Position numbers and translations under genes: made by a program. A stretch of DNA of 64,000 nucleotides, taken from the NCBI RefSeq assembly GCF_029639405.1, contig NZ_CP121274.1:1922001-1986000 (forward strand), read 5' to 3'. Source of the stretch: Microbacterium proteolyticum (GTDB lineage: Bacteria; Actinomycetota; Actinomycetes; Actinomycetales; Microbacteriaceae). This document shows positions 11,015-30,566 of this stretch, piece by piece (position 1 is the stretch's first letter; each line of letters starts with the position of its first letter). A model generated the notes under the pieces. That model was not told where the DNA came from, ran no database searches, and saw only the letters and a program-made list of their open reading frames with translations.

Positions 11015-11078
11015 GCGTGAGTCGCCAGGATGTGTCGCTTCCGCGCCGTTCGAAGCGACACATCCTGGCGACTCACGC
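11015..11078. repeat. Intergenic palindrome, family A copy 1
   Basis: Perfect 26-bp arms (11015-11040 and 11053-11078) around a 12-nt loop. Each arm carries the GTCGC core twice (AGTCGCC and TGTCGCT). It lies between the O-antigen-ligase-like gene and the LigD polymerase gene. Two diverged copies are at 54567 and 59471. Confidence 0.9.
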
Positions 11079-11127
11079 GATCGGCAACGGGGCAGACACG
11101 ACGCGCGCGGGCCGTTAGCGTCGGGGC

Positions 11128-12153: not shown

Positions 12154-12210
12154 GGCGCAGCGCTGCCGGGTCGGAGCGCCGCGGTGCGGCGTGGGCGGCG
12201 GGGCGTGCCG

Positions 12211-12282
12211 AGAACAGGGGATGTCGCGGCCACAGGCTGATCGTGGCGGAATCGGGCCTGTTCTGGGTGCGGCGCCTGTTCT
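12211..12282. repeat. Intergenic four-word element, family E
   Basis: Two direct words (AGAACAGG 12211-12218, CCACAGG 12230-12236) are followed by two inverted ones (CCTGTTC 12257-12263, CCTGTTCT 12275-12282). It lies between the convergent polymerase and ligase genes. It could fold as a bipartite hairpin and might also act as a bidirectional terminator. Confidence 0.6.
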
Positions 12283-12325
12283 GGATGCGCCCGGCAGGCG
12301 CGGTGGCTCCGGGAACCGCTGGCCG

Positions 12326-13369: not shown

Positions 13370-13372
13370 GGG

Positions 13373-14551
13373 TCAGCCTTCGCTCTCGTTCCCGGCGAGG
13401 GGCACCGGGTTCCGGCGCTTCTTGCGTCGGGCCCACTCGGCCGGCTGATCGGGACCGTTCCAGACGGTGATGATGCCCCACGCCACGGCGGTGAGCGGGA
13501 CGGCGAGCAGAGTGCCGAGGATGCCGCCGATCGCCGTTCCGCCGGCGAGGACGACCAGGACGACGAACGAGTGCAGCTTCATGGAGCGGCCCATCAGGAC
13601 GGGCTGCAGGAAGTTGCCCTCGAGCTGGTTCACGAGAACGACGATGCCGACGACGATCAGGGCGACGACCCACCCGTTGGTCACGAGGGCGACGAGGGCT
13701 GCGAGGATGCCGGCGGTCACCGCCCCGACGATGGGGATGAAGGCGAGGAGGAAGACGAGCACCGCGAGCGGCAGGGCGAGCGGCACCTGAAGGATCAGGA
13801 GGCCGATGCCGATGCCCACGGCGTCCACCGCGGCGACCGACGCCGTTCCACGGATGTACGACCCGAGCACCGTGACCGTCTTGTCGCCGATGCGGCGGGC
13901 GCGGTCGTAGTCGCTGCCGTGGAACGGGCGCAGGACGAATTCCCACATGCGCGGGCCGTCCTTGAGGAAGAAGAACAGGATGACGACCATGAGCACGAAC
14001 CCGGTCACGAACGAGGCGACCGCGCTGACGCCCGCGAGCGCACCGTTGCCGAACTGCGCGCTCGTCACGAAGTCGCCGATGGCGCTGACGGCCTGGTTGA
14101 CCTGGTCCTGCGAGATCGCGAACGGGAGCGTGTGATACCAGTCCTGCGCCTGCTGGAAGCCGGCGACGGCCTGCGAGCTGAGCGTGTCCCACTGGTCGAT
14201 GACGGCGCTGACGACGAGCCAGCCGAGGACACCCAGGACGACGACCACCGCGAGCAGAGTGAGGAGGGTGGCGAGCACCGCCGGGACGCCCTTGCGGCGC
14301 ATCCACATGGTCACGGGACCGAACGCCGACGCGAAGATCAGCGCGAGGATCAGCGGGATGATCACGAGCGTGAGCTGCTGGATGCCCCAGATGAGACCGG
14401 CGACCAGGATCGCCACGACGATGATCTGCACGGCGCGGATGGCGAGGCGACCGAAACCGTCGGCCCAGAGGCTGCGAGGTGGCGCCTGCACCGTCTGAGC
14501 GACGGTGGTCGCGACGTCACGAGCGGCGGGGTGGCGAGAGAACAGGCCCAT
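13373..14551 (-). CDS. AI-2E-family transporter
   Basis: 392 aa, about 8 membrane segments arranged as in the AI-2E/PerM (TqsA-like) exporter family: a long N-terminal hairpin pair, a soluble middle stretch (DWYHTLPFAISQDQVNQAVSAI) and a conserved C-terminal block (GAVTAGILAALVALVTNGW...NQLEGNFLQP). The NQLE(x)nFLQP motif is typical of the family. Substrate unknown; members export AI-2 or are Na+/H+ antiporters. ATG 14551 is chosen because a TACCTT hexamer lies just upstream and because the upstream in-frame sequence is not family-like. It ends 3 nt before the start of the ligase gene and may be co-transcribed with it. Confidence 0.85.
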   Translation of the reverse strand: MGLFSRHPAARDVATTVAQTVQAPPRSLWADGFGRLAIRAVQIIVVAILVAGLIWGIQQLTLVIIPLILALIFASAFGPVTMWMRRKGVPAVLATLLTLLAVVVVLGVLGWLVVSAVIDQWDTLSSQAVAGFQQAQDWYHTLPFAISQDQVNQAVSAIGDFVTSAQFGNGALAGVSAVASFVTGFVLMVVILFFFLKDGPRMWEFVLRPFHGSDYDRARRIGDKTVTVLGSYIRGTASVAAVDAVGIGIGLLILQVPLALPLAVLVFLLAFIPIVGAVTAGILAALVALVTNGWVVALIVVGIVVLVNQLEGNFLQPVLMGRSMKLHSFVVLVVLAGGTAIGGILGTLLAVPLTAVAWGIITVWNGPDQPAEWARRKKRRNPVPLAGNESEG

Positions 14552-14641
14552 GCTCAGAAGGTAGCGAACGCCCCCGACATGGCCACGCCGCTTGCGCGCG
14601 ACCCCGGCGCGGATTAGGCGCCGGGGTCGTGGCATCCGGGG

Positions 14642-15883
14642 TCAGGCGAAAGCGCTCATCCCGGTGATGTCGCGGCCGAGGAGGAGTGCCTGCACGCTCT
14701 CGGTGCCCTCGTACGTGTGGATCGCCTCGATGTCGGCCATGTGCTGCATGACGCCGTTCTCGAGCAGGATGCCGTTGCCGCCGAGCAGGTCGCGTGCGAT
14801 CGCCGCCACCCGACGCGCGGCGCGGGTGTTGTGGTACTTCGCGAGCGACGCCTGCGTGGGGCGGAGTCCGCCGGAGGTCTCGAGGTCGGCGAGGCGGCGG
14901 CAGAACAGCTGCATCGCGGTGAGCTCGTCGAGCATCTGCGCGAGGCGTTCCTGCACCATCTGGAACTTCGCGAGGGGCTTGCCGAACTGCATGCGCTCGG
15001 TGGCATATGTCCGCGCGGCCTCGTAGCAGGCGGTCGCGTGGCCCAGCGCCGACCATGCGACGCCCGAGCGCGTGGCGTACAGCACCGCCGACGCGTCTTT
15101 GAAGGTGTGGGTGCCCGGCAGCACGGCATCCGCGGGGAGACGGACGTCGTCGAGCGCGATGTGGGCCTGATGGATGCCGCGCAGCGACACCTTGCCCGTG
15201 ATAACGGTGCCCGTGTAGCCCGGGGTGTCCTGCTCGACGAGGAAGCAGCGGACCTTGCCGTGGTCGTCGTCGCCCTCGGCATCCATGCGCGCCCACACGA
15301 ACGTGATGCCGCCGGACGCGCCGTTGCCGATCCACTTCTTTTTGCCCGACAGCGACCAGCCGTCGTCGGTGCGGGTCGCGGTGGTCTCGAGCGAGACCGA
15401 GTCGGAGCCGTGATCGGGCTCGGTCAGCGCGAACGCGCCGAGCACCGTGCCGTCGGCGAGCGGCTTCAGCCAGCGCGCCTGCTGCTCGGGGGAGCCGAAC
15501 ATCGCCAGCGTCCGCAGCGCGAGTCCGCCCTGCACCGCGAGGGCCGTGGCGAGCGAGCCATCACCTCGTGAGACCTCCATGTTCACCAGGCCGGCGGCGA
15601 GGGGAGAGGATGCCGGGAGGTCGGGGTGCTCGATGCCGTCGGTGAACAGCTCCAGCTCACCCATGCGTCGGAGCAGCTCGATCGGGTAGGTCGCGGCATC
15701 CCACTCGGCCTGCATACGGGTGCCGACCTCGTCGATGAACGTCTTCGCGCGGTCCCACGCGTCGCGGTCGGCGTCGGGGATGTCGGCGAACACCGCGTAG
15801 TAGTCGGTGTCGCGGCGACCGAGGAGGTCGTACGAGGCGATGCGCTCGCCGGGGAGCGTGCGGGGCTGGGCGTCGGTGCTCAT
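14642..15883 (-). CDS. Acyl-CoA dehydrogenase, glutaryl-CoA-dehydrogenase-like
   Basis: 413 aa flavoprotein with the full ACAD fold: N-terminal helical domain, middle beta domain (GAFALTEPDHGSDS, GKKKWIGNG), and C-terminal FAD/CoA helical domain (ATERMQFGKPLAKFQMVQERLA, LLGGNG). The catalytic glutamate appears in TYEGTESVQALLLG near residue 391, the position and context used by glutaryl-CoA dehydrogenases. True substrate identity cannot be fixed by eye; a short-chain or branched acyl-CoA is possible. ATG 15883 fits the family N-terminus. A TetR gene lies upstream on the same strand with a family B palindrome between them, which suggests local control by that regulator. Confidence 0.88.
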   Translation of the reverse strand: MSTDAQPRTLPGERIASYDLLGRRDTDYYAVFADIPDADRDAWDRAKTFIDEVGTRMQAEWDAATYPIELLRRMGELELFTDGIEHPDLPASSPLAAGLVNMEVSRGDGSLATALAVQGGLALRTLAMFGSPEQQARWLKPLADGTVLGAFALTEPDHGSDSVSLETTATRTDDGWSLSGKKKWIGNGASGGITFVWARMDAEGDDDHGKVRCFLVEQDTPGYTGTVITGKVSLRGIHQAHIALDDVRLPADAVLPGTHTFKDASAVLYATRSGVAWSALGHATACYEAARTYATERMQFGKPLAKFQMVQERLAQMLDELTAMQLFCRRLADLETSGGLRPTQASLAKYHNTRAARRVAAIARDLLGGNGILLENGVMQHMADIEAIHTYEGTESVQALLLGRDITGMSAFA

Positions 15884-15934
15884 GTACTCAGTATCGCGCA
15901 TGGTGGTACTGGGTGTCATGTGGGGTTCTACAAG

Positions 15935-15994
15935 TCGAGTGTCCAAGACACGCCGTATGGCGTTGGTGCGCAACGGCGTGTCTTGGACACTCGA
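15935..15994. repeat. Intergenic palindrome, family B copy 1
   Basis: Perfect 22-bp arms (15935-15956 and 15973-15994) around 16 nt. Each arm contains a short GTGTC...GACAC palindrome, so the word GTGTC occurs four times with alternating orientation. It lies between the TetR gene and the acyl-CoA dehydrogenase start. Other copies are at 51518 and 52476. Confidence 0.9.
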
Positions 15995-16010
15995 CCGAAG
16001 GCAGAACGCC

Positions 16011-16679
16011 CTAGTGCGGGAGGCTCGCGCGCAGGCGGCGTGTGACCTCGGCGGCGGGCATGCGGCGAGGGAACGCCGCGACGATGAGGTCGTCGCCCGC
16101 GGCGACGTCGCCGTCGGGGTGGACACCGTACCGGCGGAGCACGTCGTCCAGGGCGCGGCGGAGAGTGGATGCCGGCACCCGCGCGCCGCGCATGAGCCGG
16201 CGCAGCACGTGGTTGTGCACGGCGGTGACCAGGGCGGCGAAGCCGACGGCATCCAGGGGGTCGAGTCCGGGAAGTGCTTCGCGGAGGTACTCGTCGAAGA
16301 GTCGCTCGTAGCGGAACACCGTCACGATCTCGCGATCGCGCAGCACCGGGACCTCGCGCACGATCGCGTAGCGGCGGCGGGCGAGCTCGGGGTCGGCGGC
16401 GAAGTGGCGGAACACGCGCATCGACGCGTCGCACACGGCAGCCCACGGGTCAGGATGCGGCTGCGAGAGGAAAGTACGGGTCTCGGTGAGAAGCACCTCG
16501 TGGTCGGCGAACACGACGTCTTCCTTGCCGCCGAACTGCCGGAAGAAGGTCGACCGCGACACTCCCGCGGCCTGCGCGATCTGCTCGACCGAGGTCTGGT
16601 CGTAGCCGCGCTCGGCGAAGAGCGCGATCGCGGCGGCGACCACGGCGGTGCGGCCGGGAGGGGCGGGGACGTCGGTCAT
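16011..16679 (-). CDS. TetR-family transcriptional regulator
   Basis: 222 aa. Residues 10-57 form a canonical TetR DNA-binding domain (AIALFAERGYDQTSVEQIAQAAGVSRSTFFRQFGGKEDVVFADHE), with the recognition helix in GVSRSTFFRQF. The remaining helical region is the ligand and dimerisation domain; residues MTAVHNHVLRRLMRG are reminiscent of AcrR/TetR C-terminal helices. ATG 16679 gives a normal-length N-terminus. It is co-directional with the acyl-CoA dehydrogenase gene 127 nt downstream, so it probably regulates that gene and itself. Ligand unknown; an acyl-CoA is a reasonable guess from context only. Confidence 0.88.
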   Translation of the reverse strand: MTDVPAPPGRTAVVAAAIALFAERGYDQTSVEQIAQAAGVSRSTFFRQFGGKEDVVFADHEVLLTETRTFLSQPHPDPWAAVCDASMRVFRHFAADPELARRRYAIVREVPVLRDREIVTVFRYERLFDEYLREALPGLDPLDAVGFAALVTAVHNHVLRRLMRGARVPASTLRRALDDVLRRYGVHPDGDVAAGDDLIVAAFPRRMPAAEVTRRLRASLPH

Positions 16680-16989
16680 GACGGGAAGCCTACGGCGGTG
16701 GCGGGGTGCGGGGTGGACTGAGCGTGCCGGGCTGCGGAAGGTACTCGCGACGTCCGATCGGAACGGTGCCTCAGTCCGGCCGCAGCCGCATAGGTACGGA
16801 GCCCGGAATACCTGGCCGGTTGTGTCCGACTGTTGTCGGCCGCGGATGAGCGAAACTCCTGAGGATCCGACGTTCGGATGCGGGGGCGGCGCCACCGGAC
16901 GGGTTTCGATCAGAAGCTCAGGAGTTCGGCCCGGGTCGTCCTGGTGAACGGCGTTCTCGACAGGTCGAGTAGCTGTGAGGTGAAGCAGC
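16680..16989. other. Gene-free stretch with a 10-bp inverted repeat
   Basis: No convincing coding sequence. The only structure noted is AACTCCTGAG (16854-16863) with its exact inverse CTCAGGAGTT (16917-16926), 53 nt apart, enclosing a smaller ATCCGA/TCGGAT pair. The stretch separates the TetR gene from the decayed narK gene and probably holds the TetR promoter. Confidence 0.4.
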
Positions 16990-18004
16990 CGTGATGGTGC
17001 CGGATGACGGTCAGGATGGCGAGCCCCATCGCCGTGAACGCGCCGATCGTGATGCGGGTGCCGCCGAAACGGTCGGCGAGCTTGTCGCCGTAGGGGCGGG
17101 CGAGCGATCCGGCGAGGGCGCCGAGGAATGCGAGGTCACCGTGGCCGTGCCGACGGTGAAGCCCGTGAAGTCGGGGAACGTTTCGGCCAGCAGCTTCGGG
17201 AAGACACCCGCGAAGCCGATGACGAGCCGAAGGTGCCGATGTGGAGGACGGCGAGGATCCACAGGTGTGGCTCTTTCAGAGCGGCGAGGGATGCCGCGAT
17301 GTCGGCCCTCGCGGCCCAGAAGTTGTCCATGCGGAAGTACGCGCCCGCCATGGCGACGAGGATCAGCGGCACCCAGATGAGGCCTGCGAGCGGCAAGTTC
17401 AGGGTCGCGGCGGCGCCGACCGTGATGGCGATCGGGACGAGGAACTGCGCGACCGAGGCGCCGAGGTTGCCGCCGGCGGCGTTGAGTCCGAGGGCGTAAC
17501 CCTTTTGCGCGGCGGGGTAGAAGAGCGTGATGTTCGCCATCGAGCTCGCGACCTAGGCGCCGCCGAAGTCGGAGAGATTGGCGATCAGGAGGAGTCCGCC
17601 GAAGGTCCAGTTACAGCCGCCGAAGCGCGGAACCATGAACGTGTAGGGGATCCGCAGCGTCGCCCCGACGAGGCTCGGCATGGAGATGAGCCAGAAGATC
17701 TCGCCCGCCGACAGCTGAAAGCCGGCCGCGGGCAGCGACACGACCACGACCGACCGACCACAGCTGCCAAACGACGAACCCGTGGAACTCGGCGAAGACC
17801 GACCACCGCAGGTTGCGGGCGGCGATGGCCTTGCCCTCTTCGGCCCACTGTTGGGCGTTCTCGGGGTTCCAGTTGTCGATCCAGCGGCCGGGGCGGTGGC
17901 GGAGTTCTGCGGACGCTGCTCCGGTTCAGACCGCGGGAGTTGCGGCGTTGGTCGTTGAGGCCGGGCGGCGTGGCGGTTTCGGGGCGCGGTTCTGCGCCGG
18001 TCAC
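16990..18004 (-). pseudogene. narK: Decayed NarK-type nitrate/nitrite transporter
   Basis: Translations in shifting frames give consecutive pieces of a NarK-family MFS transporter: IDNWNPENAQQWAEEGKAI, RNLRWSVFAEFHGFVVWQLW, LPAAGFQLSAGEIFWLISMPSLVGATLRIPYTFMVPRFGG, ITLFYPAAQKGYALGLNAAGGNLG, FAGVFPKLLAETFPDF and ARPYGDKLADRFGGTRITIGAF. At least four frameshifts (near 17895, 17755, 17220 and 17145) and an in-frame stop at 17553-17555 break it, and it ends near 16990 without the C-terminal half. A GTG at 18004 with GGAGG upstream is the likely original start. Such multiple lesions cannot be one sequencing error. It borders the lower-GC defence island. Confidence 0.85.
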
Positions 18005-18501
18005 GGGGGGTCCTCCGGCCGGCAGTGAGGGAGGTACAGCGCCCCGCAACGACGAGGTGTGCCGTCAGCATGGGAAGGAGGCGTTAAGCGGGACCGCGTG
18101 AGGTGCGGCGGCGGCGTAACGGTGTGTTCAACGGGGGCGGGAGCGGGGGAGGGGGGAGTTTACGTGGGCGCTACATGATAACGTGCAGGTCGCCGAGAAG
18201 CACGGCGGCGGCAAAGTTTCACGTCGGAATACAAGCGGCGAAGCGTGTGCAAATTCTCGCTGCGCTGTACCGTGCTGCCGTTCGGGCGCCTTCCCAAGTC
18301 AAAGCAGTCATAGCAGCCGCTGTCGAGGCGGCAGCAGATTGAGGCGCTTGAATTCTTAGCTAACGTCGGGTCGGCTCGCGCATAACAATTAGCTACCATG
18401 CGGATGAAGCGAAATCCCGCAAACCCTTGAATCGAGGACAAGATTCAGAGATGAGAAGGAGGCGTCCGAAGTGTCCGACAGGCCGTCCGGACCTGTTCGA
18501 T
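18005..18501. other. Junction between narK remnant and the lower-GC island
   Basis: About 500 nt with no supported gene. GC visibly falls from about 18180 onward, where runs such as AAAGTTTCACG and CTTAGCTAACG appear, so the island boundary is probably between 18080 and 18180. It contains the 3' flank of the deaminase gene, including the TTAGCTAA palindrome near 18356. No clear tRNA or attachment repeat was recognised. Confidence 0.4.
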
Positions 18502-21006
18502 CTATCTCGCTTCACGCAGGTTTTTGATCCTGTGAAGGAAATCCTTATCCACATCCGGCACCACGGCGTGATATCCATCGCCCGTGGAAAGTTGTTGCAG
18601 TTTATTTTCTAGAAGCCCAGTGTCAGACCCGTATCCGGCATTGAGTGCAGCCAACTCCTCGCCAGCGAAGCCACCGAAGACAAGTGGGTCGTCTGAGTTG
18701 ACGCTCACTCTCACGCCCATATTGAGAAATCGCCAGACGGGATGATCCTCGTACTCTCGAACTCCCGCGATGGCGAGGTTTGATGTCGGGCAGCACTCGA
18801 TCAATGTCTCGTGCAGGCGAATCTGAGAGAACACCCATTCCTCCAACGTATCGGTGGAACTTTCGAGAAACTCGATTAGACGCTTCTCGAGGTCGGCAGG
18901 AACGCCGTTGATCGCGGCGGTGGGTGTGCGGCCCGACATGTCCTTGTCGACAATTTCGCCGAACAGGAACTGTTGAACTGCCAACTTTGCGCTGAGGTTT
19001 CCAGCAATATTCAGGCTCCGCCAAAGTGCCACGGAAGATTCGCGCTCATGCAGAGGGAGTCCACTCCTCAAGGCGTTCACGGCGAACTCGAGGGGCGCCT
19101 TTGTATGTATCCACTCAAAGGCCAGCACCCAAGCGGCCGGCTCGATGACCAGGCCGGCGGAAGAAGTCAGTTGACGAATCAAGTCATGTTCTCCCTGATC
19201 GCCGACGTTCAGGGACGAATGAACAACAGAGAGGAAACAAAGATCCTGGAGGTAGTCGTCGAAACGGTAGGAGGCGGGGCTCCCCACTGTATGAAGCTGC
19301 TGCTTCACGATCATTCGACGCATCCGCGCATCGAGGGAGGAGGCGTGCCCGATACGATCCGGGGCGCGGCTCCCAAGGAAAAGCTGACCCACCGTGCGTA
19401 GGCCAGTTGAGCTCCGTTCGAAAGACTCTCCAGCGTGCGCTGTGAAGGCCAAATCCATCCGGCCGCTGATCAGATAATTTATTCCCGAGACGTAGGGCCA
19501 TGTAGCATGGCCGATTTCGATTCCGCTGACGTCGATGGAGCCCACGGCTCTGTCGAAGAGGGTCCCATCGCCGAAGTCGGCGCGTGCGATCTGGAGAGCA
19601 AGAATGACGCTGGAAACGTAATGCACCTGCTCCCACGGAAGACCCCACCTGCGAGTGTCGGATTCGACAGTCAGCGCGGGATACGGCGGGTAGATTTCAC
19701 GCCATTCCTCTCGCGGTCGCTGAAAAGATATCGGCGCGCAGAATCTTTTAGGTATGCGCAATTGCGACGCGGGGGTTATTCGAGAAACGACACGCTCGTA
19801 AGTTTCCCACCTTCGCATTATCCCCTCGGAGACGTCGCGGCTGATGGAGTGAATGTCGAGACCGGGATCTACCTCTCTCCTTAATTCGAATCCGGTCATC
19901 TCGTAGGGGGGTGGATAACCCTGTCGGGCGTGTTCGAGAGACGCGCTCTGTGCCTCGATCTCCAATTCGTTTGAACCGCGTGCTTCTGCGGAGCCGAGGA
20001 TGGTCTTTCGCAACACTGATGCTGCACCGCAGTGCCATTGAAATCGGTTGAAGCCCTCTCCGGTCCACGACGGAATTTCAGCGAAGAGTGCAACGACCGC
20101 TCGCACGAGATTGATGGCGAAAGGGTACGGCCACGATGGTATTGTGGCGTCTGGTTCGGCGTCTGCTTCGATACGGCAGTCAAGAATCGACATTCTGTCG
20201 ATGAGTTCGCCGACCATCTCGCGAGCACGCTGCCCGCTGCTCTGCCACTTCTCTAGCGCGCGATCGAGTGTTAGATCGGCGATCTGGTCCGCATCTGCTT
20301 CCCATATCTGCTCCTCGAAGATTCGCAGAGATGATTCGTCGACCGCCTTTCCGTTCGCCATGGTATTTATTAGCGGCCAGTACTTCCCAGTTATCACCAT
20401 ATGCCACGCCTCAGACATCCCCGAATTTCCGGAAACTAGCGTCGGTAAATTCCAGGAGCCTTGCTCAATCAGGCATTCGAGAAGCCAAATTGCCCATCGA
20501 ATGGCGCTTGAGAGAACCACTTCTCGGGGGGCACGCTGCATGCTGTTTCCCCGGTTCCAAGAGATTTTCTTCCTGCGCATTGCGAGCGCTGCCAGAAGCG
20601 ACCGCCTGTCATAGGCAAGTCCCCCGTGAAGATGATTGTCTGATATCTGAACAAAACGAGGGGCGAATTGATCATAGGTCGGCCGCCTTCCAAACAGCTC
20701 CACAGCCAGGCTACGTAAACCACCCAGCTCAAGTCCCGACGGTATGGGGCGGTAATCCTGGGAGATCAGACCCAGAAGAGGTTCGGGAGTTGCGATGATA
20801 AACGCATCAATGGCGAGATCGATCCCGTCGCCATTGACAGCGCCGACTTTGCGAGCTCGATCTCGCCAGTAGCCGAGCGGTGCGTCACTGAATCGCATCC
20901 ACTCGCCCTCGGGTACCCCCAAATCGTGCCCGAGGTATCGCGGATGGAACGCCCGGTATAGCAGGTACGCGCCAGCTCTGGCGGGACCGTCCGTCACGTT
21001 TGACAA
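18502..21006 (-). CDS. rdrB: RdrB-like adenosine deaminase of a RADAR defence system
   Basis: 834 aa. The adenosine/AMP deaminase signature is spread over the protein: N-terminal H125-L-H127 (metal ligands), HAGE at 524-527 (metal His and catalytic Glu), RIGHA at 551-555, ECCPTSN at 737-743, and SVNSDDP at 768-774 (metal and proton-shuttling Asp). Ordinary deaminases are 330-500 aa. Here about 400 residues separate HxH from HAGE and 180 separate RIGHA from CPTSN, the enlarged form known for RdrB. In RADAR, RdrB deaminates adenine nucleotides or RNA with RdrA during phage infection. It starts 19 nt after the ATPase gene, apparently at TTG 21006 with a weak ribosome site; GTG 20997 is an alternative. 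GC is lower than flanking genes. Confidence 0.85.
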   Translation of the reverse strand: MSNVTDGPARAGAYLLYRAFHPRYLGHDLGVPEGEWMRFSDAPLGYWRDRARKVGAVNGDGIDLAIDAFIIATPEPLLGLISQDYRPIPSGLELGGLRSLAVELFGRRPTYDQFAPRFVQISDNHLHGGLAYDRRSLLAALAMRRKKISWNRGNSMQRAPREVVLSSAIRWAIWLLECLIEQGSWNLPTLVSGNSGMSEAWHMVITGKYWPLINTMANGKAVDESSLRIFEEQIWEADADQIADLTLDRALEKWQSSGQRAREMVGELIDRMSILDCRIEADAEPDATIPSWPYPFAINLVRAVVALFAEIPSWTGEGFNRFQWHCGAASVLRKTILGSAEARGSNELEIEAQSASLEHARQGYPPPYEMTGFELRREVDPGLDIHSISRDVSEGIMRRWETYERVVSRITPASQLRIPKRFCAPISFQRPREEWREIYPPYPALTVESDTRRWGLPWEQVHYVSSVILALQIARADFGDGTLFDRAVGSIDVSGIEIGHATWPYVSGINYLISGRMDLAFTAHAGESFERSSTGLRTVGQLFLGSRAPDRIGHASSLDARMRRMIVKQQLHTVGSPASYRFDDYLQDLCFLSVVHSSLNVGDQGEHDLIRQLTSSAGLVIEPAAWVLAFEWIHTKAPLEFAVNALRSGLPLHERESSVALWRSLNIAGNLSAKLAVQQFLFGEIVDKDMSGRTPTAAINGVPADLEKRLIEFLESSTDTLEEWVFSQIRLHETLIECCPTSNLAIAGVREYEDHPVWRFLNMGVRVSVNSDDPLVFGGFAGEELAALNAGYGSDTGLLENKLQQLSTGDGYHAVVPDVDKDFLHRIKNLREAR

Positions 21007-21025
21007 CTGTCAGGAAGCGGCTGAG

Positions 21026-23359
21026 TCAAGGTCGTGCCCAGTCTCGTAGCCGCGCTGATACGTAGGCAACTAGTAGATCCGCGTCACCCTCCTCAAGAAA
21101 ATCCCGATTCTGGGCGAGTGGGGAGCTCGCCTGTTCGGCCTGTGCCACGCTGTGCGCGATCGCCGCGCCGCCCACGCGCGGCGCACTCACAGTTCGCCTC
21201 CATGCCGGAATAATGAGCTCGGCCCAACCGTGAGGCATCTTGAAGTTGAGTGCGGAGGCAATACGTTCGTATCCGCCTATCCAGGCTTGCTTCTCGACGG
21301 ATTGTGTCGTGCCAATTTCCTCGCAGTGGGTCTTCAATCTTGTGCTCAGGCTTCGGTTGATGTAAATGTGATCGGGCGCCTCTGCGGCGCTCTCGCCGCC
21401 GGAAACGGACAAGATTCGACGAGCGAACCCATCGATGTCCTCGAGTGCAAATATCGATTCGTGCCAATGCGCGGGTAGCCAGTACTGAAACCACGCCAAG
21501 TAATGTCTTTCTCGCAGTGTCACGCGAATTCCCGATTCACGGCGCAGGCGGATCCCGTGCGCATGGTCAGACGCCGCCGCGAACGCTTCTGTGTACCCTG
21601 TCGCTAGGTCTTCTATATCTACGTCGGAATCGTCGACAAATATGGCAACAGAGGCGTGGATCGAGAGGGCAAGTATCTCGCGTAGTGCTAGATGCTCGCG
21701 CCGGGCTCGATCAATGATCTGAGTCCAACTGGATATCACCCTGACTGTAGAGATTAGGCAGAAGCTTTGCGGGAAACTAACAAATGCGTCGTCTGTTGCA
21801 AGGTTTTGGATCCTGATGCTTTGCAGGAATCGAATGGAGTCGAATGTAACCCCGTATGTCAGGCGGCTGTTATCGGTTACCCGAATCTGCGGATCGCTAG
21901 TGACGACGCCTTGGATTGCAAGTAGCAGGCTCAGCGCGCCTTGCGTGTCGAGGTAGTCCTTGACGGTCGAGGAGCTTACTCTCCATCTTGGCACCAGTTC
22001 TGCAAACGGTCGAAAGTCGTAAACGACATGATTGGCGGAGTCGATCGGGTCTTCGCGATCGGTGTCGAGGTCGAACCAGTCGCCTGCTCGCACCGCGCCG
22101 TACACCCCACGGTAATCGATGGAAGCAAGCACCCTCTCGTCTCGGCCAGGTTCTTCGAATACTTCGAACTTGCCAACCGGTGGGGTTTCGATCCCGAATG
22201 GCGGGTCTACGACGTTTTGAAGCGATTCGAGAACACGAGCCAATGCGTCTAGTTCTCGCTGTCCGGTCCGCTCAACTGTCGACAGGTGTATGGCTGACCA
22301 TAGTTGTGCGAGTTTGCGCAGATTCGTCGGGAGCAGGTGAGCCACCTGGCCGGTGTCGAGAATGGTCGATTGCGGCCCCGTTGGATCAAGAAGCATGTTC
22401 GATACCACCAGACTTCTGTCCGCATTGCGTGGCTCCGCGGCGGCGAGCAGGTCAACAAAGTCCCGGTGGTCCCCGCGTGGTCTATAATGTACGCTCTCGC
22501 GCCAGGAGGGTTGGGGCATCCGATAAGTTGCCCACTGAGGAAAAGTCTTCCGTAATTGTTGGGCTACCGCGTCGTGTACTTCGCGTTCCACTCCCGCATC
22601 GAAGTCGGCCTTGAATCCAGCGCCCGGATAGTACTCATTTCGAGTTTCGCGGATCAAATGACGTGCGATTTCACCGTCTTTCAGTGCAACAATGGGGATG
22701 GCATTGCGGCATGCTCCGAGTAGGCGAATCTGTCGAACCAAACGCAGCTGGGCGGATGCCTTAATCATGTCGGCGTCGTCGATAGGAATGATGATCGCAG
22801 TCGCGTCGCCATCAAGTGAGACAAGAGTTGTGAATAGTCGCTGTACGTCCTGCCACATCTGGTCGGTGCCGCCAGCAAGATCCTGCATCTCTCTCGCTAT
22901 CTCGCTGATTGATGAGGCGGCTCGCATGAGATGCTCGTGAGGTATAGCATTCATCGCCGAATGCCTCTTCGCCGTCTGTAATAGTCGAAGGATCTCGAGT
23001 CGCTGAACGTCGTCCACGTGTCCGTCTAGCTTGTGGCAATGTTGATTCAGTGCCGCGAGGACTATATTCAGAAGTGTGTCAGTTTCGCCGAAGAGCTCGG
23101 GGGATAGCGGCGGTAGAACAATGTACTTCCTATTCTCTCGCAACTGTTCGAGAACGCTCACAAGCAGGGTAGACTTGCCTGTGCCGCGGTCTCCAAGGAT
23201 GGATACTACGTGCGTTTCAGATCGGATCCTGTCGATTGCGAGCGAAAAGTCCTCCGTTGCGCGTTTATGCTCAACGTCACTAGGGAATCGCGACGCCACA
23301 TAGGCAACTGTGTCGAGAACCTGAGAAGCGAGCGCCTCGTGAGATTTGAATTGTGTCAA
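21026..23359 (-). CDS. rdrA: RdrA-like P-loop ATPase of a RADAR defence system
   Basis: 777 aa. Walker A is GDRGTGKST at residues 56-64. A hydrophobic strand ending in PIDDAD (residues 192-197) is the Walker B. The N-terminal 350 residues look like an AAA+/STAND-type ATPase; the remaining 420 have no motif I recognise. It has no membrane segment. Size, ATPase type and position directly upstream of a large ADA-like deaminase match RdrA of RADAR, the ATPase that assembles with RdrB. The start is TTG 23359, which overlaps the stop of the upstream gene (TTGA) and has AGGAGG about 10 nt before it, so translation is coupled. The general P-loop motif alone would not prove the assignment; the gene pair does. 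Confidence 0.82.
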   Translation of the reverse strand: MTQFKSHEALASQVLDTVAYVASRFPSDVEHKRATEDFSLAIDRIRSETHVVSILGDRGTGKSTLLVSVLEQLRENRKYIVLPPLSPELFGETDTLLNIVLAALNQHCHKLDGHVDDVQRLEILRLLQTAKRHSAMNAIPHEHLMRAASSISEIAREMQDLAGGTDQMWQDVQRLFTTLVSLDGDATAIIIPIDDADMIKASAQLRLVRQIRLLGACRNAIPIVALKDGEIARHLIRETRNEYYPGAGFKADFDAGVEREVHDAVAQQLRKTFPQWATYRMPQPSWRESVHYRPRGDHRDFVDLLAAAEPRNADRSLVVSNMLLDPTGPQSTILDTGQVAHLLPTNLRKLAQLWSAIHLSTVERTGQRELDALARVLESLQNVVDPPFGIETPPVGKFEVFEEPGRDERVLASIDYRGVYGAVRAGDWFDLDTDREDPIDSANHVVYDFRPFAELVPRWRVSSSTVKDYLDTQGALSLLLAIQGVVTSDPQIRVTDNSRLTYGVTFDSIRFLQSIRIQNLATDDAFVSFPQSFCLISTVRVISSWTQIIDRARREHLALREILALSIHASVAIFVDDSDVDIEDLATGYTEAFAAASDHAHGIRLRRESGIRVTLRERHYLAWFQYWLPAHWHESIFALEDIDGFARRILSVSGGESAAEAPDHIYINRSLSTRLKTHCEEIGTTQSVEKQAWIGGYERIASALNFKMPHGWAELIIPAWRRTVSAPRVGGAAIAHSVAQAEQASSPLAQNRDFLEEGDADLLVAYVSARLRDWARP

Positions 23360-23946
23360 AGGCCCGATCCCTCCTGTTGTTCCTTTGATCCCGAAGTTTG
23401 GTCCTCAGGTGCCGAAGATATTCTCTCCGAGGCGAAATCTGTCGATGGCGTGAGCTGCTCGCTCGAGTATTCGGTCGCTGGATCGGCTGACGAGGCGTTT
23501 TGTGGCAGTGTTGATCGAACGCCCTCATAGTCGGCACGGATCTGTCTGAGCTCGGACTCGAGTTGCCCTAGAAGGTCGGATATCACGTCTCTGGAGTTCG
23601 GAAGATGGATCTGCAGGAATTCTGCGGCGAGGCGGTCGGCGATCTCGGCCCTTGGGTAGTTCATTATGGAGTCGAATTCGTCGAGCAACTCTCCTGGCAG
23701 GTTGCCTGCCAGAGCGCGTCCCACCTTCTCCTGAAAAGCGTTGTAGGCGGCTCGGAGGATCGCGTGCTTACGAGGTGCATCTAGGCTGGAGTAGCCGAGC
23801 GTATCCAGCCACTCAGTATTAAAGTTCGGCGTCCGACTCAGGTCCTGCGACACCATCCACCCCCCGGTTTGTGCGATCGAGGCAACACCGTACCGTATCC
23901 CGGTCCAGTATGAGCGCACGCGTTGAAGCGGCGCAGGTGTCAGCAT
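23356..23946 (-). CDS. Unrecognised first gene of the RADAR-like operon
   Basis: 196 aa, soluble, no signal peptide or membrane segment. Residues about 35-150 look helical, including an amphipathic stretch (AEFLQIHLPNSRDVISDLLGQLE...IRADYEGV, residues about 110-146). The last 50 residues are Ser/Glu/Thr-rich and probably disordered. I do not recognise the family. It overlaps the ATPase start by 4 nt, so it is part of the same transcript and probably a working component. Described RADAR accessory genes are membrane proteins (Csx27-like or SLATT); this one is not. ATG 23946 is used; a later start at MVSQDL (residue 31) is possible. Confidence 0.7.
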   Translation of the reverse strand: MLTPAPLQRVRSYWTGIRYGVASIAQTGGWMVSQDLSRTPNFNTEWLDTLGYSSLDAPRKHAILRAAYNAFQEKVGRALAGNLPGELLDEFDSIMNYPRAEIADRLAAEFLQIHLPNSRDVISDLLGQLESELRQIRADYEGVRSTLPQNASSADPATEYSSEQLTPSTDFASERISSAPEDQTSGSKEQQEGSGL

Positions 23947-23977
23947 CGCAGCGTGATCGACGGACTCCGACTTTTCG

Positions 23978-24057
23978 TCGGCTTCCGTCGGCGCAGCCGT
24001 CTTACGGCTCGTGGGCGACAGCTACTGTCGGGGTTCTGATCTTGCGACGGAAGCCGA
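23978..24057 (-). promoter_or_regulatory. Structured leader/operator upstream of the RADAR-like operon
   Basis: A perfect 13-bp inverted repeat (23978-23990 and 24045-24057) encloses two further hairpins: AGCCGT/ACGGCT around 3 nt (23995-24009) and CGACAG/CTGTCG around 3 nt (24016-24030). As RNA on the minus strand this would fold into a three-way junction ending 31 nt before ATG 23946. It may be a 5' leader, a small RNA or a protein-binding operator. Confidence 0.6.
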
Positions 24058-24422
24058 AACAGTCCTTCATCCATCTCGGTCGAGCATGCCCCGCCGTGAA
24101 GCCACCCCGCCGGCCTGGCGCCTGGTGCGGATTCCAGCTTCGGTCCGTCGCTCCGAGGACGCCGGGCTTGCTTGCTCTTGGCGTCGCTGTTCGCGCTAGG
24201 ATCCCGATTTGGCTCGGTCGGTGAGACGGGTTGAGGTCGTGATGCGACATCGTCGGTTTGCCCGCACGTTCTCTAGAAGCTGCATGCGTTGCTGCGATAG
24301 GTCTCTCAGTACGCCATTCGGTCGGCACCGGTCTTCACTGCGGGCCAAATTCCCGTTGCCGTAGGAGCGTTCACCGACAAGCTGCACTCGTTCTGGGGCG
24401 AGGGGGCATCAGGGCGTTGGCT
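24058..24422. other. Gap between the RADAR-like operon and the nuclease gene
   Basis: About 365 nt with no gene I can support. It must contain the promoter of the minus-strand defence operon. Short open frames exist on both strands but none has a ribosome site or recognisable protein sequence. No transposase fragment was recognised. Confidence 0.35.
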
Positions 24423-25512
24423 TCATTGGTGTCGAACGACCGCCTCGCGAATGGCATCCGCGTACTGGCGAATCTCGTCAAGTTCGTCGATCGGGTGCCG
24501 CGTCTCGCTCTTCTGCTCGTCGAGCAGCCGGAGGTACCTCTGGCGGCCGTTGAAGTGCAGGCGCGCGAACGGCTTGCGGTCGTTGTCGTCGAGGAGCACG
24601 GCGAAGTAGCTCTTCGCGTCGCGGTGGGTGATTCGCTGCGGCTTGGTTTCGCCGCAGGCGATGGCCTTCACGATCTGGTAGCCCCCAAGTTCTTCGAGCG
24701 TCGTCTCGATCTTGGTGTCGCGATTCAGATCCTCCTGCGCGACCGGCTCGCTCGAGACGGCGGCGGGCTCCGCGGTCGGGAGGGCGATCCCCGCCCCGGC
24801 GCCCAAGGCGGTCTTCAGTCGGTCGTTCACGCTCTCCGTGAGGAACTGGCGGGATGCCTTGCCGACGACTGCCGTGAACTGCTCGCGGACTCGCGCTGCG
24901 TGCGAGCCCTCGTACACACGCTGGGTGAAGAACTTGATCCACTCGTCGCTCGACCCGCGGAACTGGCCGGCGATCTCGCGCTTGAACGCACCCACGTACT
25001 TCAGCTCTTCGGCGGCGCTGATGATCGACTCGAGATCGAAGCTGTCCCTACTCGGCTTCTGGACCTCGGGGATCAGCGTGTCGTCAACGTCGAGCAGATC
25101 CAGAACGAGGAGCGGCTTGGCATCCATCTTGACCGGTGCGTCGAGGTCGGTGAAGAACTGCCAGATAACGCCGTTGGTGGGTGCAGCGATCCGGGCGTTC
25201 GTTGTCGAGAAATAGCGGAAGAGCTGGGACGCGTGCTCGGTCTTGGGGGCGCCTGTGGAGGCCTTGCACGCGATGAGGATCTGGGCCTCGCCGTCGCGCA
25301 TAATGGCGTAGTTGACCTTCTCGCCCTTCTTGATGCCGACGTCCGCGGTGAACTCCGGGACGACCTCGAGCGGGTCGAACCCGTGGTATCCCAGGATCGT
25401 CGAGATGAACGGCATGGACGAAGGCGTTCTTCGTCGCTTCCTCCGTGCCGATCGCCGAGGCTTGATCGCCTACCTTTGTCGCGAGCGCGGCGATGCGGTC
25501 GTGAAACTCCAT
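24423..25512 (-). pseudogene. HsdR-N-type restriction endonuclease-like gene, frameshifted
   Basis: The protein resembles stand-alone 'type I restriction enzyme R, N-terminal domain' proteins: an N-terminal nuclease-like fold (LEVVPEFTADVGIKKGEKVNYAI, then QILIACKAS, i.e. the D...xxK spacing of PD-(D/E)xK enzymes). The natural N-terminus MEFHDRIAALATKVGDQ...EEATKNAF starts at ATG 25512 in another frame. One extra C near 25413-25414 splits the gene after NAFV. Without it the product would be about 363 aa. Either a real one-base frameshift or a sequencing error. No helicase or specificity subunit is nearby, so it is not a classical type I system. It sits beside the RADAR-like operon on the same strand. 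Confidence 0.65.
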
Positions 25513-25667
25513 TGGTCCCCCCCACAGTGACGAATATGTGGTGACCATAGCGGAATCACAGCAAGATCGCGTGGGACGCGCTCCGCTGGTAGTTCAGGCC
25601 GATTGCGCGTTCGGTTTCGGCGTGCGCTTTCCGAATTCCGCGATCAGCCGGTGAGGCGGACCCGCCC

Positions 25668-25877
25668 TTACACGACCCGCCGGAACCGCGGCCCCGAATA
25701 CCCGTCCCGCTCGACGTTCCCCAGGAACATCGCCACCGGCCGCACCCAGTGCGAGTAGTCGTCGTAGAGCTTCCGGTACGACACGAAGACCTCCTCGGTC
25801 TCCGAGTGCCGCGCGATTCCGAACACCTCGTACCGCTGGCCCTTGAAGTGCTCGTAGATGCCGGGTTCGATCTCCAT
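25668..25877 (-). CDS. DUF1653 domain protein
   Basis: 69 aa from ATG 25877 (MEIEPGIYEHFKGQRYEVFG). The whole protein is one DUF1653 domain, recognisable by the G-x-Y-x-H-F-K-G opening, VFVSYRKLYDD and the closing RF motif. Members are small cytosolic beta proteins of unknown function, often next to tRNA or nucleotide genes. Upstream in-frame codons extend to about 25946 but add only unrelated sequence, so the short start is preferred. Confidence 0.85.
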   Translation of the reverse strand: MEIEPGIYEHFKGQRYEVFGIARHSETEEVFVSYRKLYDDYSHWVRPVAMFLGNVERDGYSGPRFRRVV

Positions 25878-25955
25878 CGCGCCTTCTCCCTCGCTCACTG
25901 CCGAACCTGTCGAGTCTGACAGGTGGGTGCCGGTACTTGCCCGCACCCACGCCCC

Positions 25956-26456
25956 TCACGCCGCGAGGCGGATGAGCCCCAGCGCGATCAGCGTGACGCC
26001 CGTCGTCCACAGGGCGATGGCGGCCGCCTGCCAGGCGATCACGCGCAGGGGCGGCACTCCCGTGGACGTGAGCGCCGCGGCGGTGAACTGCGTCGGCAGC
26101 AGCAGGGGACCCAGCAGGCTCACGCCGGGGGTGCCGTACCGGTGGTAGGCCTTTTCGAACTTCTCGCGTCGCGCTGTCTGCGTCTTGGCGGGCGCGCCGC
26201 GACGCGTCGTGACGGCCGCGCGGACGCGCGATGTCACGAGCACCACGATCGCCACGCACAGCAGGTTGCCGATGGCGGCCGCGAGGACGGCGACGAGGGG
26301 GTGGATGCCGCCGATGATGCCGATCGCGGCGGCACCCTCGCCCTCGATGAACGGCACCGCTCCGGCGGCGGCGACGATGAGCGGTTGCACGAGCGTGGGC
26401 ACGTCGGCGACGAGGCCCTGGAAGCCGAGGACGAGATCCGTGAGGGGGTTCGACAT
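25956..26456 (-). CDS. Small multidrug-export-like membrane protein
   Basis: 166 aa with four or five hydrophobic segments. AAAGAVPFIEGEGAAAIGIIGG is the GPFIEG-type motif seen in the putative small multi-drug export (Sm_multidrug_ex) family. A cytoplasmic basic loop (TRRGAPAKTQTARREKFEKAYHRYG) separates the two halves. ATG 26456 has a good AGGAGAC ribosome site. Transport of drugs is a family label, not shown. Upstream (26530-26598) are two sequence boxes repeated upstream of the 27905 gene. Confidence 0.65.
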   Translation of the reverse strand: MSNPLTDLVLGFQGLVADVPTLVQPLIVAAAGAVPFIEGEGAAAIGIIGGIHPLVAVLAAAIGNLLCVAIVVLVTSRVRAAVTTRRGAPAKTQTARREKFEKAYHRYGTPGVSLLGPLLLPTQFTAAALTSTGVPPLRVIAWQAAAIALWTTGVTLIALGLIRLAA

Positions 26457-26529
26457 GAGGTCTCCTGGGGGGATGAGTCCGCGGGATTTCCGCGGTGATT
26501 CCATTCCACGGGCCGGGGCCCGGCGGCGG

Positions 26530-26598
26530 CAGTGCCGCGGTGTCACTGCCGCTCGGGAGGATGCGGGCCGACTCCCGTGACGAATGTCACGGACGTGA
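26530..26598. promoter_or_regulatory. Two shared regulatory boxes, copy 1
   Basis: Box 1 (26530-26546) fits CAGTGYCGCGGYGTCAC. Box 2 (26578-26596) fits TGACGRATGTCACGNACGT, and around it is the 16-nt palindrome CGTGACGAATGTCACG. The same two boxes in the same order occur at 27939-28031 beside the two-component genes, which points to one regulator. Confidence 0.45.
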
Positions 26599-26601
26599 CG
26601 G

Positions 26602-27264
26602 TCAGCTCGCCAGGTCGTCCAGCCACGACGCCCGGAACCGGGACGCCCGCTCGATGCTCGCGGCGACGACGATGAGCGTGACGGCCAGGTTCACCGCGGG
26701 CGGGAGATGCAGCGGCCACGTGAAGGTGCCGATGCTCTCGGCGATCGGCGGGATGTGCGAGACGGTGTCGATCAGCTGCGGAACCGCGAGGCACGCGCCC
26801 GCGACGACGATCGCCGTCGACAGGATGCCGATGAGCCGACTCGCCCCGCGGTGATCCCGATCGAACGCCGCCCGGCGTCCCTCCGCGGAGCGGGGGTGGG
26901 GGACGAGCTGGCGCTCGTCGCCGGCATCCGAGACGAAATGGCACCGGCGGAGGCCGTACCCTCCCACCGCCACCTCGATGTGCCCGCCGGGCACGGAGAA
27001 CCGGGCGGGCAGACGCGATACGGCGGCGAGCGCCCCGTCGCGATACAGGCGTGCGCGCACGTCGCCGTCGTCGCGGTCGCCGAGCTGATGCACGTCGACC
27101 GTGTACTCGATCGTCCGGCCGGTGGCATCCGGAATTCGCAGGGAGAGCTGCGACCGGCTCAACACCTGCCACCAGCGGAACGGGGCGAGGGGCCGACCGT
27201 CGCCGGCGCGCGCCCGTCGCTCGGCGAGCCGCGCCCGCAGGGAACGGGGGCGACGGGCCGTCAC
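26602..27264 (-). CDS. Hypothetical membrane protein, co-translated with upstream gene
   Basis: 220 aa. The first 145 residues are soluble and rich in Arg, with beta-like segments (LSLRIPDATGRTIEYTVDVHQL; ARFSVPGGHIEVAVGGYGLRRCHFV). Two hydrophobic helices follow (about 152-170 and 190-208). No family recognised. GTG 27264 overlaps the stop of the SpoIIM-like gene (GTGA), so the two form an operon and may form a complex. The orientation, with a cytosolic N-terminal domain on a C-terminal hairpin anchor, is inferred from charge. Confidence 0.6.
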   Translation of the reverse strand: MTARRPRSLRARLAERRARAGDGRPLAPFRWWQVLSRSQLSLRIPDATGRTIEYTVDVHQLGDRDDGDVRARLYRDGALAAVSRLPARFSVPGGHIEVAVGGYGLRRCHFVSDAGDERQLVPHPRSAEGRRAAFDRDHRGASRLIGILSTAIVVAGACLAVPQLIDTVSHIPPIAESIGTFTWPLHLPPAVNLAVTLIVVAASIERASRFRASWLDDLAS

Positions 27265-27905
27265 AGCAGCACCTCGCTCAGCGGGAAGACCAGGTAGCGC
27301 AGGGAGTAGGCCTCCCACACGGCCCCGATCACCAGCAGGACGAACGCGGGGATCGACAGGATGCCGAGACTCTTGAGGCCCCGCAGGTATCCGGCGCGGC
27401 GGGTCGGCGCCCCGACCTGCGCGGGGCGGAGCCAGGCGCGTCCGAGGAGGAACGCGCCGAGCGCCACCAGTGCGTACGCCTGGAGCTCGATGAGCACGGT
27501 GAGGGAGTGGGGGATCATCGCCACCCACGTGAGCGGGGTCGACGGCACGAGCGTGATGCCGGTCTCGACCAGCCAGTACGCGAAGAACGCGAGCCCGGCG
27601 AACGGCACGATCAGCGACGGGACGACGATCGTCAGAAGGCTAAGCCGCAGCACGTTCACGGCCAGGATCACGAGGGCGAACAGCGGAGCCGACGCGGCGA
27701 CCGCGCCGACGAGGTCGCCCGTCCCGTCGGTGGCGAGCGTGGCGGCGCGCGCGGCGGGGAGCGCGGGGAAGAGCAGACCGATCACGAAACCGATGGCGAA
27801 CAGCCCGTAGGTGGAGCCGGTGATGATCGCGTAGGTACGACGGTTCTCGCGGATCAGTGCGAATGGGCGGCGCCAGCGCGGCGCTCGGGTGGTGGGGGAG
27901 GACAT
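27261..27905 (-). CDS. SpoIIM-like integral membrane protein
   Basis: 214 aa, five or six membrane segments. The block MIPHSLTVLIELQAYALVALGAFLLGRAWLRP and the final GAVWEAYSLRYL resemble the IPHG(x)xE...G and E-ending helices of stage II sporulation protein M-family proteins, which also occur in non-sporulating actinobacteria with unknown roles. ATG 27905 gives a basic N-terminus before the first helix. It diverges from the histidine kinase gene at 28044 across a 138-nt gap with the shared boxes, so the neighbouring two-component system may control it. Confidence 0.5.
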   Translation of the reverse strand: MSSPTTRAPRWRRPFALIRENRRTYAIITGSTYGLFAIGFVIGLLFPALPAARAATLATDGTGDLVGAVAASAPLFALVILAVNVLRLSLLTIVVPSLIVPFAGLAFFAYWLVETGITLVPSTPLTWVAMIPHSLTVLIELQAYALVALGAFLLGRAWLRPAQVGAPTRRAGYLRGLKSLGILSIPAFVLLVIGAVWEAYSLRYLVFPLSEVLL

Positions 27906-27938
27906 GCTTCCATCGCATCCGCCTCTGCCGGTCGGCGA

Positions 27939-28031
27939 CAGTGTCGCGGCGTCACGACCCCGCATGACATCGGTCAGGGGTGGCGGCGCCCGAGGGGCCG
28001 GGGCGCCACCCATGACGGATGTCACGCACGT
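27939..28031. promoter_or_regulatory. Two shared regulatory boxes, copy 2
   Basis: Box 1 at 27939-27955 and box 2 at 28013-28031 repeat the pair at 26530-26598. A further CATGACATCGGTCA at 27963-27976 resembles box 2. Box 2 ends at the TACAGT -10 hexamer (28031-28036) of the kinase gene, a position suited to repression or autoregulation. Confidence 0.45.
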
Positions 28032-28043
28032 ACAGTGGCCCGG

Positions 28044-29204
28044 GTGATCACCCCGACCGCCGCCTACGCCCGTGACGTGAGCGTCACGTGGTGGTACACC
28101 GCGTCGTCGATCCTCTTCCTCCACGCGTTCGCGGCCGTCACCTGGACGATCGGGGTGTTCGCCGAGGGAGCCCCGACGGCCCTCGTACTGAATCTGCTCG
28201 GCGTCGCCGGGTCGCTGGCATCCGCGGTGCTCCTGCTCGTGCGCTACCGCCGCGAGCCGCTCGACGACGCCGATGTCACCGCTCGACGGCCGATGTGGCC
28301 GCTCGTCGTGTCGGGGATCGTGGCAGCCGCGGCGATGGGGATGTCGACCGGGTCGCTCCTGCTCGGCGTGGGGTTCGCCGCGCAGACCCTGTGCCTGGTG
28401 CGGTGGCGCGCGGGCGTGCGGGTGCGCCTGGCCGTGCTGTCGATCGTGGTGATCGTGGCGGTGTGGCTGATCGAGGTCACGCGCCTGCAGCCCGAGGGCT
28501 ACGCCCAGGTCTTCGCACTGCCGTTCTTCGTGGCGCTCCTGCCCCCGCTGACGGCGACCTCGCTGTGGTGGTGGGACATCGTCTGCGAACTCGATCGTGC
28601 GCGCCGTGCCGAAGGTCGCCTCGCCGCGGCCCAGGAGCGGCTGCGGCTCGCGGGCGACCTCCACGACCTGCAGGGCCACCATCTGCAGGTGATCGCGCTG
28701 CAGCTCGAACTGGGCGAGAAGATGATGGCGCGCGATCCCGAAGCCGCCGGAGACCAGGTGCGCGCCGCCCGCGCCAGCGTCGACGACGCCCGTCGCGGGA
28801 CCCGCGATCTCGCGGCCCGCTTCCGGGGCGTGCCCCTCCCGGACGAACTCGCCAACGCCGCCGACCTTCTGCGTGCCGCCGGCCTCACCGTCGACCTGAA
28901 CGTCGACGCGACCGCGGACCGTGCGCCGGCGGACGTGCTCGGACCGGTGGTGCGCGAGTCGACGACCAATGTGCTCAAACACGGCGGCGGGGTGTCGGCA
29001 TCCCTCTCGCTCGTCCGACAGGAGGGGGCATGGGTGCTGGTCGTCGAGAACGACTCCCGGGTCGCCACGACCCCGGTGAGCGACGGCGCCGGCCTCTCCG
29101 GAATCGCCGAGCGGGTCGGAGCGCTGGGCGGCGACATGGATGCCACCCGCCTCGACGATCGTTTCCGCCTCACCGTCCGCGTGCCCCAGGAGGTCGCCGC
29201 GTGA
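28044..29204 (+). CDS. DesK-like sensor histidine kinase
   Basis: 386 aa. Five or six N-terminal membrane helices (residues 10-170) form the sensor. The phosphoacceptor histidine is in RLAGDLHDLQGHHLQVIALQLELG, the HisKA_3 motif of NarL/DesK-type kinases. The ATP-binding domain includes RESTTNVLKHGGG (N box) and DGAGLSGIAERVGALGG (G box). GTG 28044 is placed 8 nt after TACAGT, fitting a leaderless promoter. It overlaps the response regulator by 4 nt (GTGA). The signal is likely membrane or envelope state, given the many helices and no periplasmic domain. Confidence 0.88.
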   Translation: MITPTAAYARDVSVTWWYTASSILFLHAFAAVTWTIGVFAEGAPTALVLNLLGVAGSLASAVLLLVRYRREPLDDADVTARRPMWPLVVSGIVAAAAMGMSTGSLLLGVGFAAQTLCLVRWRAGVRVRLAVLSIVVIVAVWLIEVTRLQPEGYAQVFALPFFVALLPPLTATSLWWWDIVCELDRARRAEGRLAAAQERLRLAGDLHDLQGHHLQVIALQLELGEKMMARDPEAAGDQVRAARASVDDARRGTRDLAARFRGVPLPDELANAADLLRAAGLTVDLNVDATADRAPADVLGPVVRESTTNVLKHGGGVSASLSLVRQEGAWVLVVENDSRVATTPVSDGAGLSGIAERVGALGGDMDATRLDDRFRLTVRVPQEVAA

Positions 29205-29833: not shown

Positions 29834-29874
29834 CTCCGCCTCTGCCAGGCTGGCGGAGGGAGCAGAGGAGCACC

Positions 29875-30516: not shown

Positions 30517-30566
30517 TCCGATCCGCGAGCCACGGCTCGCCTCTGGCCGCTCGCTACGGTGGTGAC

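Follow-up and report, generated by a model that had tools for sequence, protein, structure and literature searches.

RADAR is an anti-phage system built on an ATPase, RdrA, and a deaminase, RdrB. According to the accessible part of PMC9994260, the RdrB of E. coli makes inosine triphosphate (ITP) and its deoxy form (dITP) from ATP and dATP in infection, both active sites being required; the same source counts 270 RADAR-bearing genomes among about 38,000. In the available portion of PMC7699616, subtypes are described that carry Csx27 (rdrABC) or SLATT (rdrABCD), and that of PMC11676413 names a small membrane protein, a SLATT domain or Csx27 as accessories. Another deaminase, Cad1, confers ITP-forming immunity (PMC11645235, in the portion available). 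Here we analyse a stretch of 64,000 nucleotides (nt) from Microbacterium proteolyticum (contig NZ_CP121274.1, positions 1,922,001 to 1,986,000; henceforth the window), which carries at 18502-23946 what we take, with a probability of roughly 87%, to be a strongly diverged RADAR anti-phage operon. This estimate covers the RADAR assignment and the mechanism proposed below, not the role of a small additional gene.

The operon consists of three open reading frames (ORFs) on the minus strand, in the order of transcription a small gene with a DUF5663 domain (23356-23946, 196 codons), an rdrA-like AAA+ ATPase gene (21026-23359, 777 amino acids, aa) and an rdrB-like adenosine deaminase gene with large insertions (18502-21006, 834 aa). 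The stop of the small ORF overlaps the start of the ATPase gene by 4 nt, and a gap of 19 nt separates the ATPase from the deaminase gene. A first-pass annotation of this DNA had described the two large genes as a RADAR variant, and its 777-aa Walker A/B ATPase, encoded on the same strand 19 nt before the deaminase gene, agrees with our coordinates. The assignment itself is supported by gene order, motifs, homology to RdrA and RdrB and conserved linkage, all of which are established in this analysis. The annotated span, reaching to 23946, takes in the third ORF, on which the accompanying text was silent. Judged by their sequences, the two large proteins belong to the known system RADAR as a diverged member, with predicted anti-phage activity.

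The ATPase is recognised by the NCBIfam RdrA model NF041743 (E 6.9e-10, 38 bits), and its sole PDB match at E <= 0.001 is 8fnu (1.3e-4, residues 50-235), which is among the entries that PMC9994260 gives for RADAR and which we read as RdrA from its KAP NTPase label. A profile of 12 other RADAR ATPases, from which the window protein was left out, recovers it with 67.1 bits (2.2e-20). Run against the 344 ORFs of the window and of the loci introduced below, this profile has just one further match at E <= 1, to an additional RdrA-like ORF of locus L033. When the ATPases of the window and of a related locus from Pseudolysinimonas yzui (L030) are compared with ten others by hhalign, the probability reaches 98.6. 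The Walker A motif (LGDRGTGKST, residues 55-64; 23168-23197) and the Walker B motif (IIPIDDADMI with the DDAD core, residues 190-199; 22763-22792) follow the patterns GxRGxGK and DDxD, each of which is present in all 12 aligned proteins. Equally invariant (12/12) is R348 (22316-22318), a candidate sensor-2 arginine: it sits 286 residues past the Walker A lysine, and 295 residues separate the corresponding pair in E. coli RdrA (K82-R377; PMC9994260, accessible part). The sensor-1 region holds an aspartate (ALKDGE), but this column is not conserved in the ATPase alignment.

The deaminase contains all the motifs of its family that had been listed for it. HLH of the zinc site (residues 125-127; 20626-20634) has both histidines invariant in the 12 aligned deaminases, and HAGE with the catalytic glutamate (524-527; 19426-19437), RIGHA with His 554 (551-555; 19342-19356) and SDDP (771-774; 18685-18696) were located by motif search and alignment; CPTSN is likewise present. 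The zinc-binding histidine tetrad and the catalytic glutamate, whose roles we take from the accessible part of PMC9994260, are conserved at all five residues in 12 of 12 sequences. The spacings between HxH, HxGE, GH and SDD are 399, 30 and 217 residues, as opposed to 188, 24 and 76 in the ordinary deaminase of the same genome, and the large insertions claimed earlier are borne out by the first and last of these distances. An extension at the N-terminus (HxH at 125), an insertion dividing the core and another past the last catalytic histidine all fit RdrB, a comparison made by length only.

Homology points in the same direction. The deaminase matches the NCBIfam RdrB model NF041744 (2.4e-9, 36.3 bits) and Pfam A_deaminase (6.8e-16), and BLASTP aligns its residues 521-776 with the RdrB of an actinomycetotan locus (L025; 47.4 bits, 2e-9) straight through an insertion that ordinary deaminases lack. 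An RdrB profile built without the window protein scores 65.2 bits, compared with 58.7 for Pfam A_deaminase; in the profile comparison set beforehand, both large proteins are recognised by profiles that exclude them (67.1 and 65.2 bits). In hhalign, the deaminases of the window and L030 taken together match nine others with a probability of 98.8 (E 7e-17, 329 columns). A fold search (Foldseek, VIA-align) places RdrB structures at the top, aligned over 503-526 residues, and Cad1 and other deaminases below them with 244-315 residues; the structure comparison proposed earlier thus ranks RdrB before ordinary deaminases, for a model of low confidence (mean predicted local distance difference test score, pLDDT, 49.7).

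Several observations weigh against a RADAR assignment, and two of the alternatives draw on them. The scores of both large proteins are far under the curated cut-offs (38 bits against 600 for RdrA, 36.3 against 800 for RdrB), and PADLOC ranks PifA (3.3e-6) ahead of RdrA (3.5e-5) for the ATPase. The deaminase taken alone aligns in hhalign in two pieces, with probabilities of 96.7 (residues 719-818) and 60.4 (466-592), and the input alignment of its poor structure model was made of RdrB relatives. The RdrB of L025 is likewise below the RdrB cut-off, and PifA is also the top PADLOC match of the ATPase in a RADAR locus of Streptococcus (L038). The divergence of the window ATPase is not unusual for RADAR, because identity among the published RdrA proteins is itself no more than 22-25%, measured in the ATPase domain (PMC9994260, accessible part).

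One could suppose that the gene encodes a metabolic adenosine or AMP deaminase which happens to lie beside an unrelated ATPase gene, since ordinary deaminases lead both the single-sequence PDB search (31.4 bits, RdrB 18.4) and the NCBIfam comparison (53.1 bits, RdrB 36.3). We consider this very improbable: the size and the spacings fit RdrB and not the compact core of the genome's own deaminase, the genome already carries that normal enzyme (290 bits), and the linkage to the ATPase is conserved. A CRISPR-linked deaminase of the Cad1 type, in which a CARF domain is fused to the adenosine deaminase, or a relative of it, is suggested by PADLOC, where CARF_ADA (1.9e-6) precedes RdrB (1.4e-5). This match spans only residues 727-773 of the deaminase core, however; no CARF family is found in Pfam at E <= 1, just 124 residues precede HxH, whereas Cad1 chains align from residue 228-260 on, and the partner is an RdrA-like ATPase. 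A Cad1-type effector is therefore disfavoured, and we regard it as scarcely credible.

A diverged RADAR operon, by comparison, is what the conserved linkage supports. We scanned genome contigs with an alignment of ATPases only (those of the window and L025, and the matching stretch of 8fnu) and with no deaminase in the query; 151 stretches fit the pattern, and 12 loci were confirmed. In 11 of them the next gene product on that strand, or in L038 the next but one, is a large deaminase, which speaks against an ATPase from an unrelated family without linkage. In L039 the deaminase is split into two ORFs. The twelfth locus, L032, is a contig of 3055 nt; its stretch 177-3026 comprises the rdrA-like ORF, which stops after 123 codons, and the genes that follow, which resemble what we take to be an IS66-type element. 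The hosts include Bacillota, Bacteroidota, Pseudomonadota and Actinomycetota. In the trees, the window groups with L030 and L037 for the ATPase (98/97) and with L030 for the deaminase (92/91), joins that involve long branches, for which the tool warns of possibly false groupings.

Such operons are rare in the family. Among 349 genomes sampled there, relatives of the ATPase turned up in two, the window's own and one whose match lies within the range of L030 (Pseudolysinimonas yzui), and whole-genome searches returned nothing but the window's own copy in 98 relatives and in 396 sampled Actinomycetota. The RdrA model, run over 396 genomes of the order, matches 21 at E <= 0.01. All of these except the window's own have E > 0.001 and lie around Walker A, and in the three that were opened (L026-L028; listed ORFs of 450 or 600 aa and over) the ORFs look by eye like other ATPases, and none like a large deaminase. 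At E <= 1e-6 the RdrB model finds one of 396 genomes of the phylum (G352), the window's own not passing this threshold. No relatives were found in plasmids with the ATPase, the small protein or the 8fnu stretch as query, in viral contigs with the ATPase, the 8fnu stretch, either of two alignments of ATPases or one of the small protein, or in genome contigs with the deaminase alone. Deaminase matches in five plasmid and two phage records cover just 10-15% of the query at 35-38% identity and were set aside; one such record (H1), when opened, held a 519-aa ORF with deaminase motifs.

Some of the confirmed loci have peculiarities of their own. In L033 (1444-17249) two RdrA-like ATPases flank a type III CRISPR-associated RAMP protein (TIGR03986, 1.4e-88), followed by rdrB, an arrangement that is a possible link between RADAR and CRISPR. 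In the Streptococcus locus L038, a 252-aa gene (12210-12968) lies between rdrA and rdrB; at the thresholds used, it is not recognised by any family of Pfam, NCBIfam, PHROGs or PADLOC, and it matches nothing among the RADAR proteins better than E 0.12. The RADAR locus of L029 is situated between two genes with very similar starts (8707-9738 and 19579-20568), the first of the Fic family, which perhaps represent duplicated ends of an inserted unit.

The DUF5663 gene beside the diverged RADAR genes may be a new part of the system; it is the most novel element of the operon and of interest to specialists. Its ORF matches Pfam DUF5663 (PF18908) with 4.9e-8 and 33.9 bits, above the gathering score, and its true start, judged from the sequence, is likely at 23856, which would give 166 aa. 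In Pseudolysinimonas yzui a 111-aa ORF occupies the same place, likewise overlapping rdrA by 4 nt; it matches DUF5663 with 2e-4 and 22.3 bits, slightly below the cut-off of 23.7, and none of five shuffles of it does. The kinship of the two small proteins rests on the Pfam model and on position, because BLASTP finds no match between them. Of 246 Actinomycetota genomes sampled, the window's own alone contains DUF5663, and the domain occurs in one of the nine RADAR genomes searched (9 of the 12 loci), that of P. yzui, at precisely the gene that overlaps rdrA. No membrane-like segment is present in the window protein (best 19-aa hydrophobicity mean 0.43). A full-text search for DUF5663 found no paper in the collection searched. 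At the level of weak matches, the protein (23359-23850) resembles OxsA in the PDB (E 0.0059 over 49 residues) and phrog_14427 (0.013).

These data allow two interpretations. On the one hand, the RADAR of Microbacteriaceae may be a three-component machine and a subtype of its own, in which the DUF5663 protein, a candidate third component, would be an essential soluble subunit sensing phage or licensing RdrA; we put this forward tentatively, as possible rather than probable. Alternatively, and at about even odds, RADAR comprises two genes only, with DUF5663 encoded by a passenger or by a neighbour unrelated to the system, an interpretation that contests the step to a third component and not the RADAR assignment. 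The failure of BLASTP to connect the two small proteins agrees with a passenger, as does the absence of DUF5663 from the eight other RADAR genomes tried; none was recognised among the upstream ORFs listed in other loci either, of which two small ones were tested (L034 and L040) without a match, and rdrA and rdrB are enough for defence in E. coli (PMC9994260, accessible part). The first two of these points also weigh against a third subunit. Against a passenger speaks, on the other side, that the small gene has an identical placement, overlapping rdrA by 4 nt, in two systems of only 23-24% identity at different chromosomal sites, as does the rarity of DUF5663 in the phylum (1/246). A similar short ORF was noted just upstream of rdrA in four loci (L034 9587-9811, L035 9589-9813, L036 9469-9783, L039 9512-9736), near genes that by eye look flagellin-like; the copy in L034 has no Pfam match.

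If the operon works like its counterpart in E. coli, as portrayed in the accessible part of PMC9994260, RdrA would form a ring-shaped AAA+ ATPase responding to a phage cue and would dock on a shell of RdrB, which would then deaminate ATP and dATP to ITP and dITP and so limit phage replication. The DUF5663 protein might act together with RdrA as a soluble partner, its likeliest role being that of a sensor, adaptor or brake; we propose this from the overlap between its gene and rdrA, seen in both of the operons from Microbacteriaceae. The phage signal sensed by RADAR is left unknown in the accessible part of PMC9994260, and the small gene that overlaps rdrA in two operons very distant from each other, with a putatively soluble product, offers a direct candidate for a sensor or regulator that can be tested. 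Should the protein be a RADAR subunit, this would be the first function for that domain of unknown function, and should the three-component interpretation be true, it would define a subtype of RADAR whose scores lie far beneath what the curated models require. Our data suggest that the sequence range of RADAR extends past the curated cut-offs, and surveys relying on these may therefore undercount the system.

The operon lies in a low-GC insert (18176-24432) between the remnant of a transporter gene and an endonuclease gene. The lower GC reported previously is confirmed, with 0.572 in the insert as opposed to 0.705 (10000-18000) and 0.700 (25600-40000) in the flanks. Four genomes of the same genus that carry the endonuclease gene were compared at this site (L055-L058): between the two flanks L055 has 1771 nt and L056 has 1092 nt, versus 6258 nt in the window, and the flank on the transporter side was not found in L057 and L058. 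In L055 the site holds a lone gene of the TIGR04141 family (10348-11958, 462 bits, 58% GC), and it is possibly an accessory-gene hot spot. The transporter-like gene, presumably a nitrate transporter, is represented at the insert's edge only by separate fragments (17002-18175), which have no Pfam match, and is a single 489-aa ORF in L055 (8669-10138). The 330-aa endonuclease gene bordering the variable site (24423-25415; phrog_4225, 1.1e-95) has relatives in 8 of 49 genomes of the genus, its own included.

The operon of P. yzui is located elsewhere: on one side it has an SseB-type gene, on the other a conserved stretch that precedes a gene which we take to be infC-like. At the corresponding place the window's genome is shorter by about 2.9 kb, and its only RdrA-like gene is the one in the window. 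Two different chromosomal sites are consistent with movement of the operon by transfer. The earlier proposal of acquisition by transfer stands to this extent, while no flanking repeats mark a mechanism: only short, imperfect direct repeats were found. The window contains no tRNA and no Rfam match at gathering score, and promoter-like sites in 17900-24600 number 2, with 2.1 expected.

Compared with the described systems, the window deaminase has, judged from its model, the core fold in common with Cad1, which differs by its CARF fusion and its type III CRISPR signal; the window protein has no CARF match and an RdrA-like partner. With the RADAR of E. coli, C. rodentium and S. suis, the window shares rdrA and rdrB in tandem, the AAA+ motifs, the histidine tetrad and the glutamate, and deaminase insertions at the same places by motif spacing. 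Its ATPase is 27% identical to the RdrA of 8fnu over the 187-residue core fragment aligned, and shorter (777 aa versus 907 for the chain). Unlike these systems, it possesses an extra DUF5663 gene in front, and its proteins score far below the curated cut-offs of NF041743 and NF041744. The subtypes with Csx27 or SLATT likewise combine rdrAB with an accessory gene; unlike those accessories, the small protein of the window has no hydrophobic segment and matches DUF5663 only. The closest counterpart is the RADAR-like locus of P. yzui found here, which lies at a different chromosomal site and has just 23% (ATPase) and 24% (deaminase) identity to the window, but shows the same order of three genes: a DUF5663-like gene, an ATPase of 778 aa and a deaminase of 774 aa.

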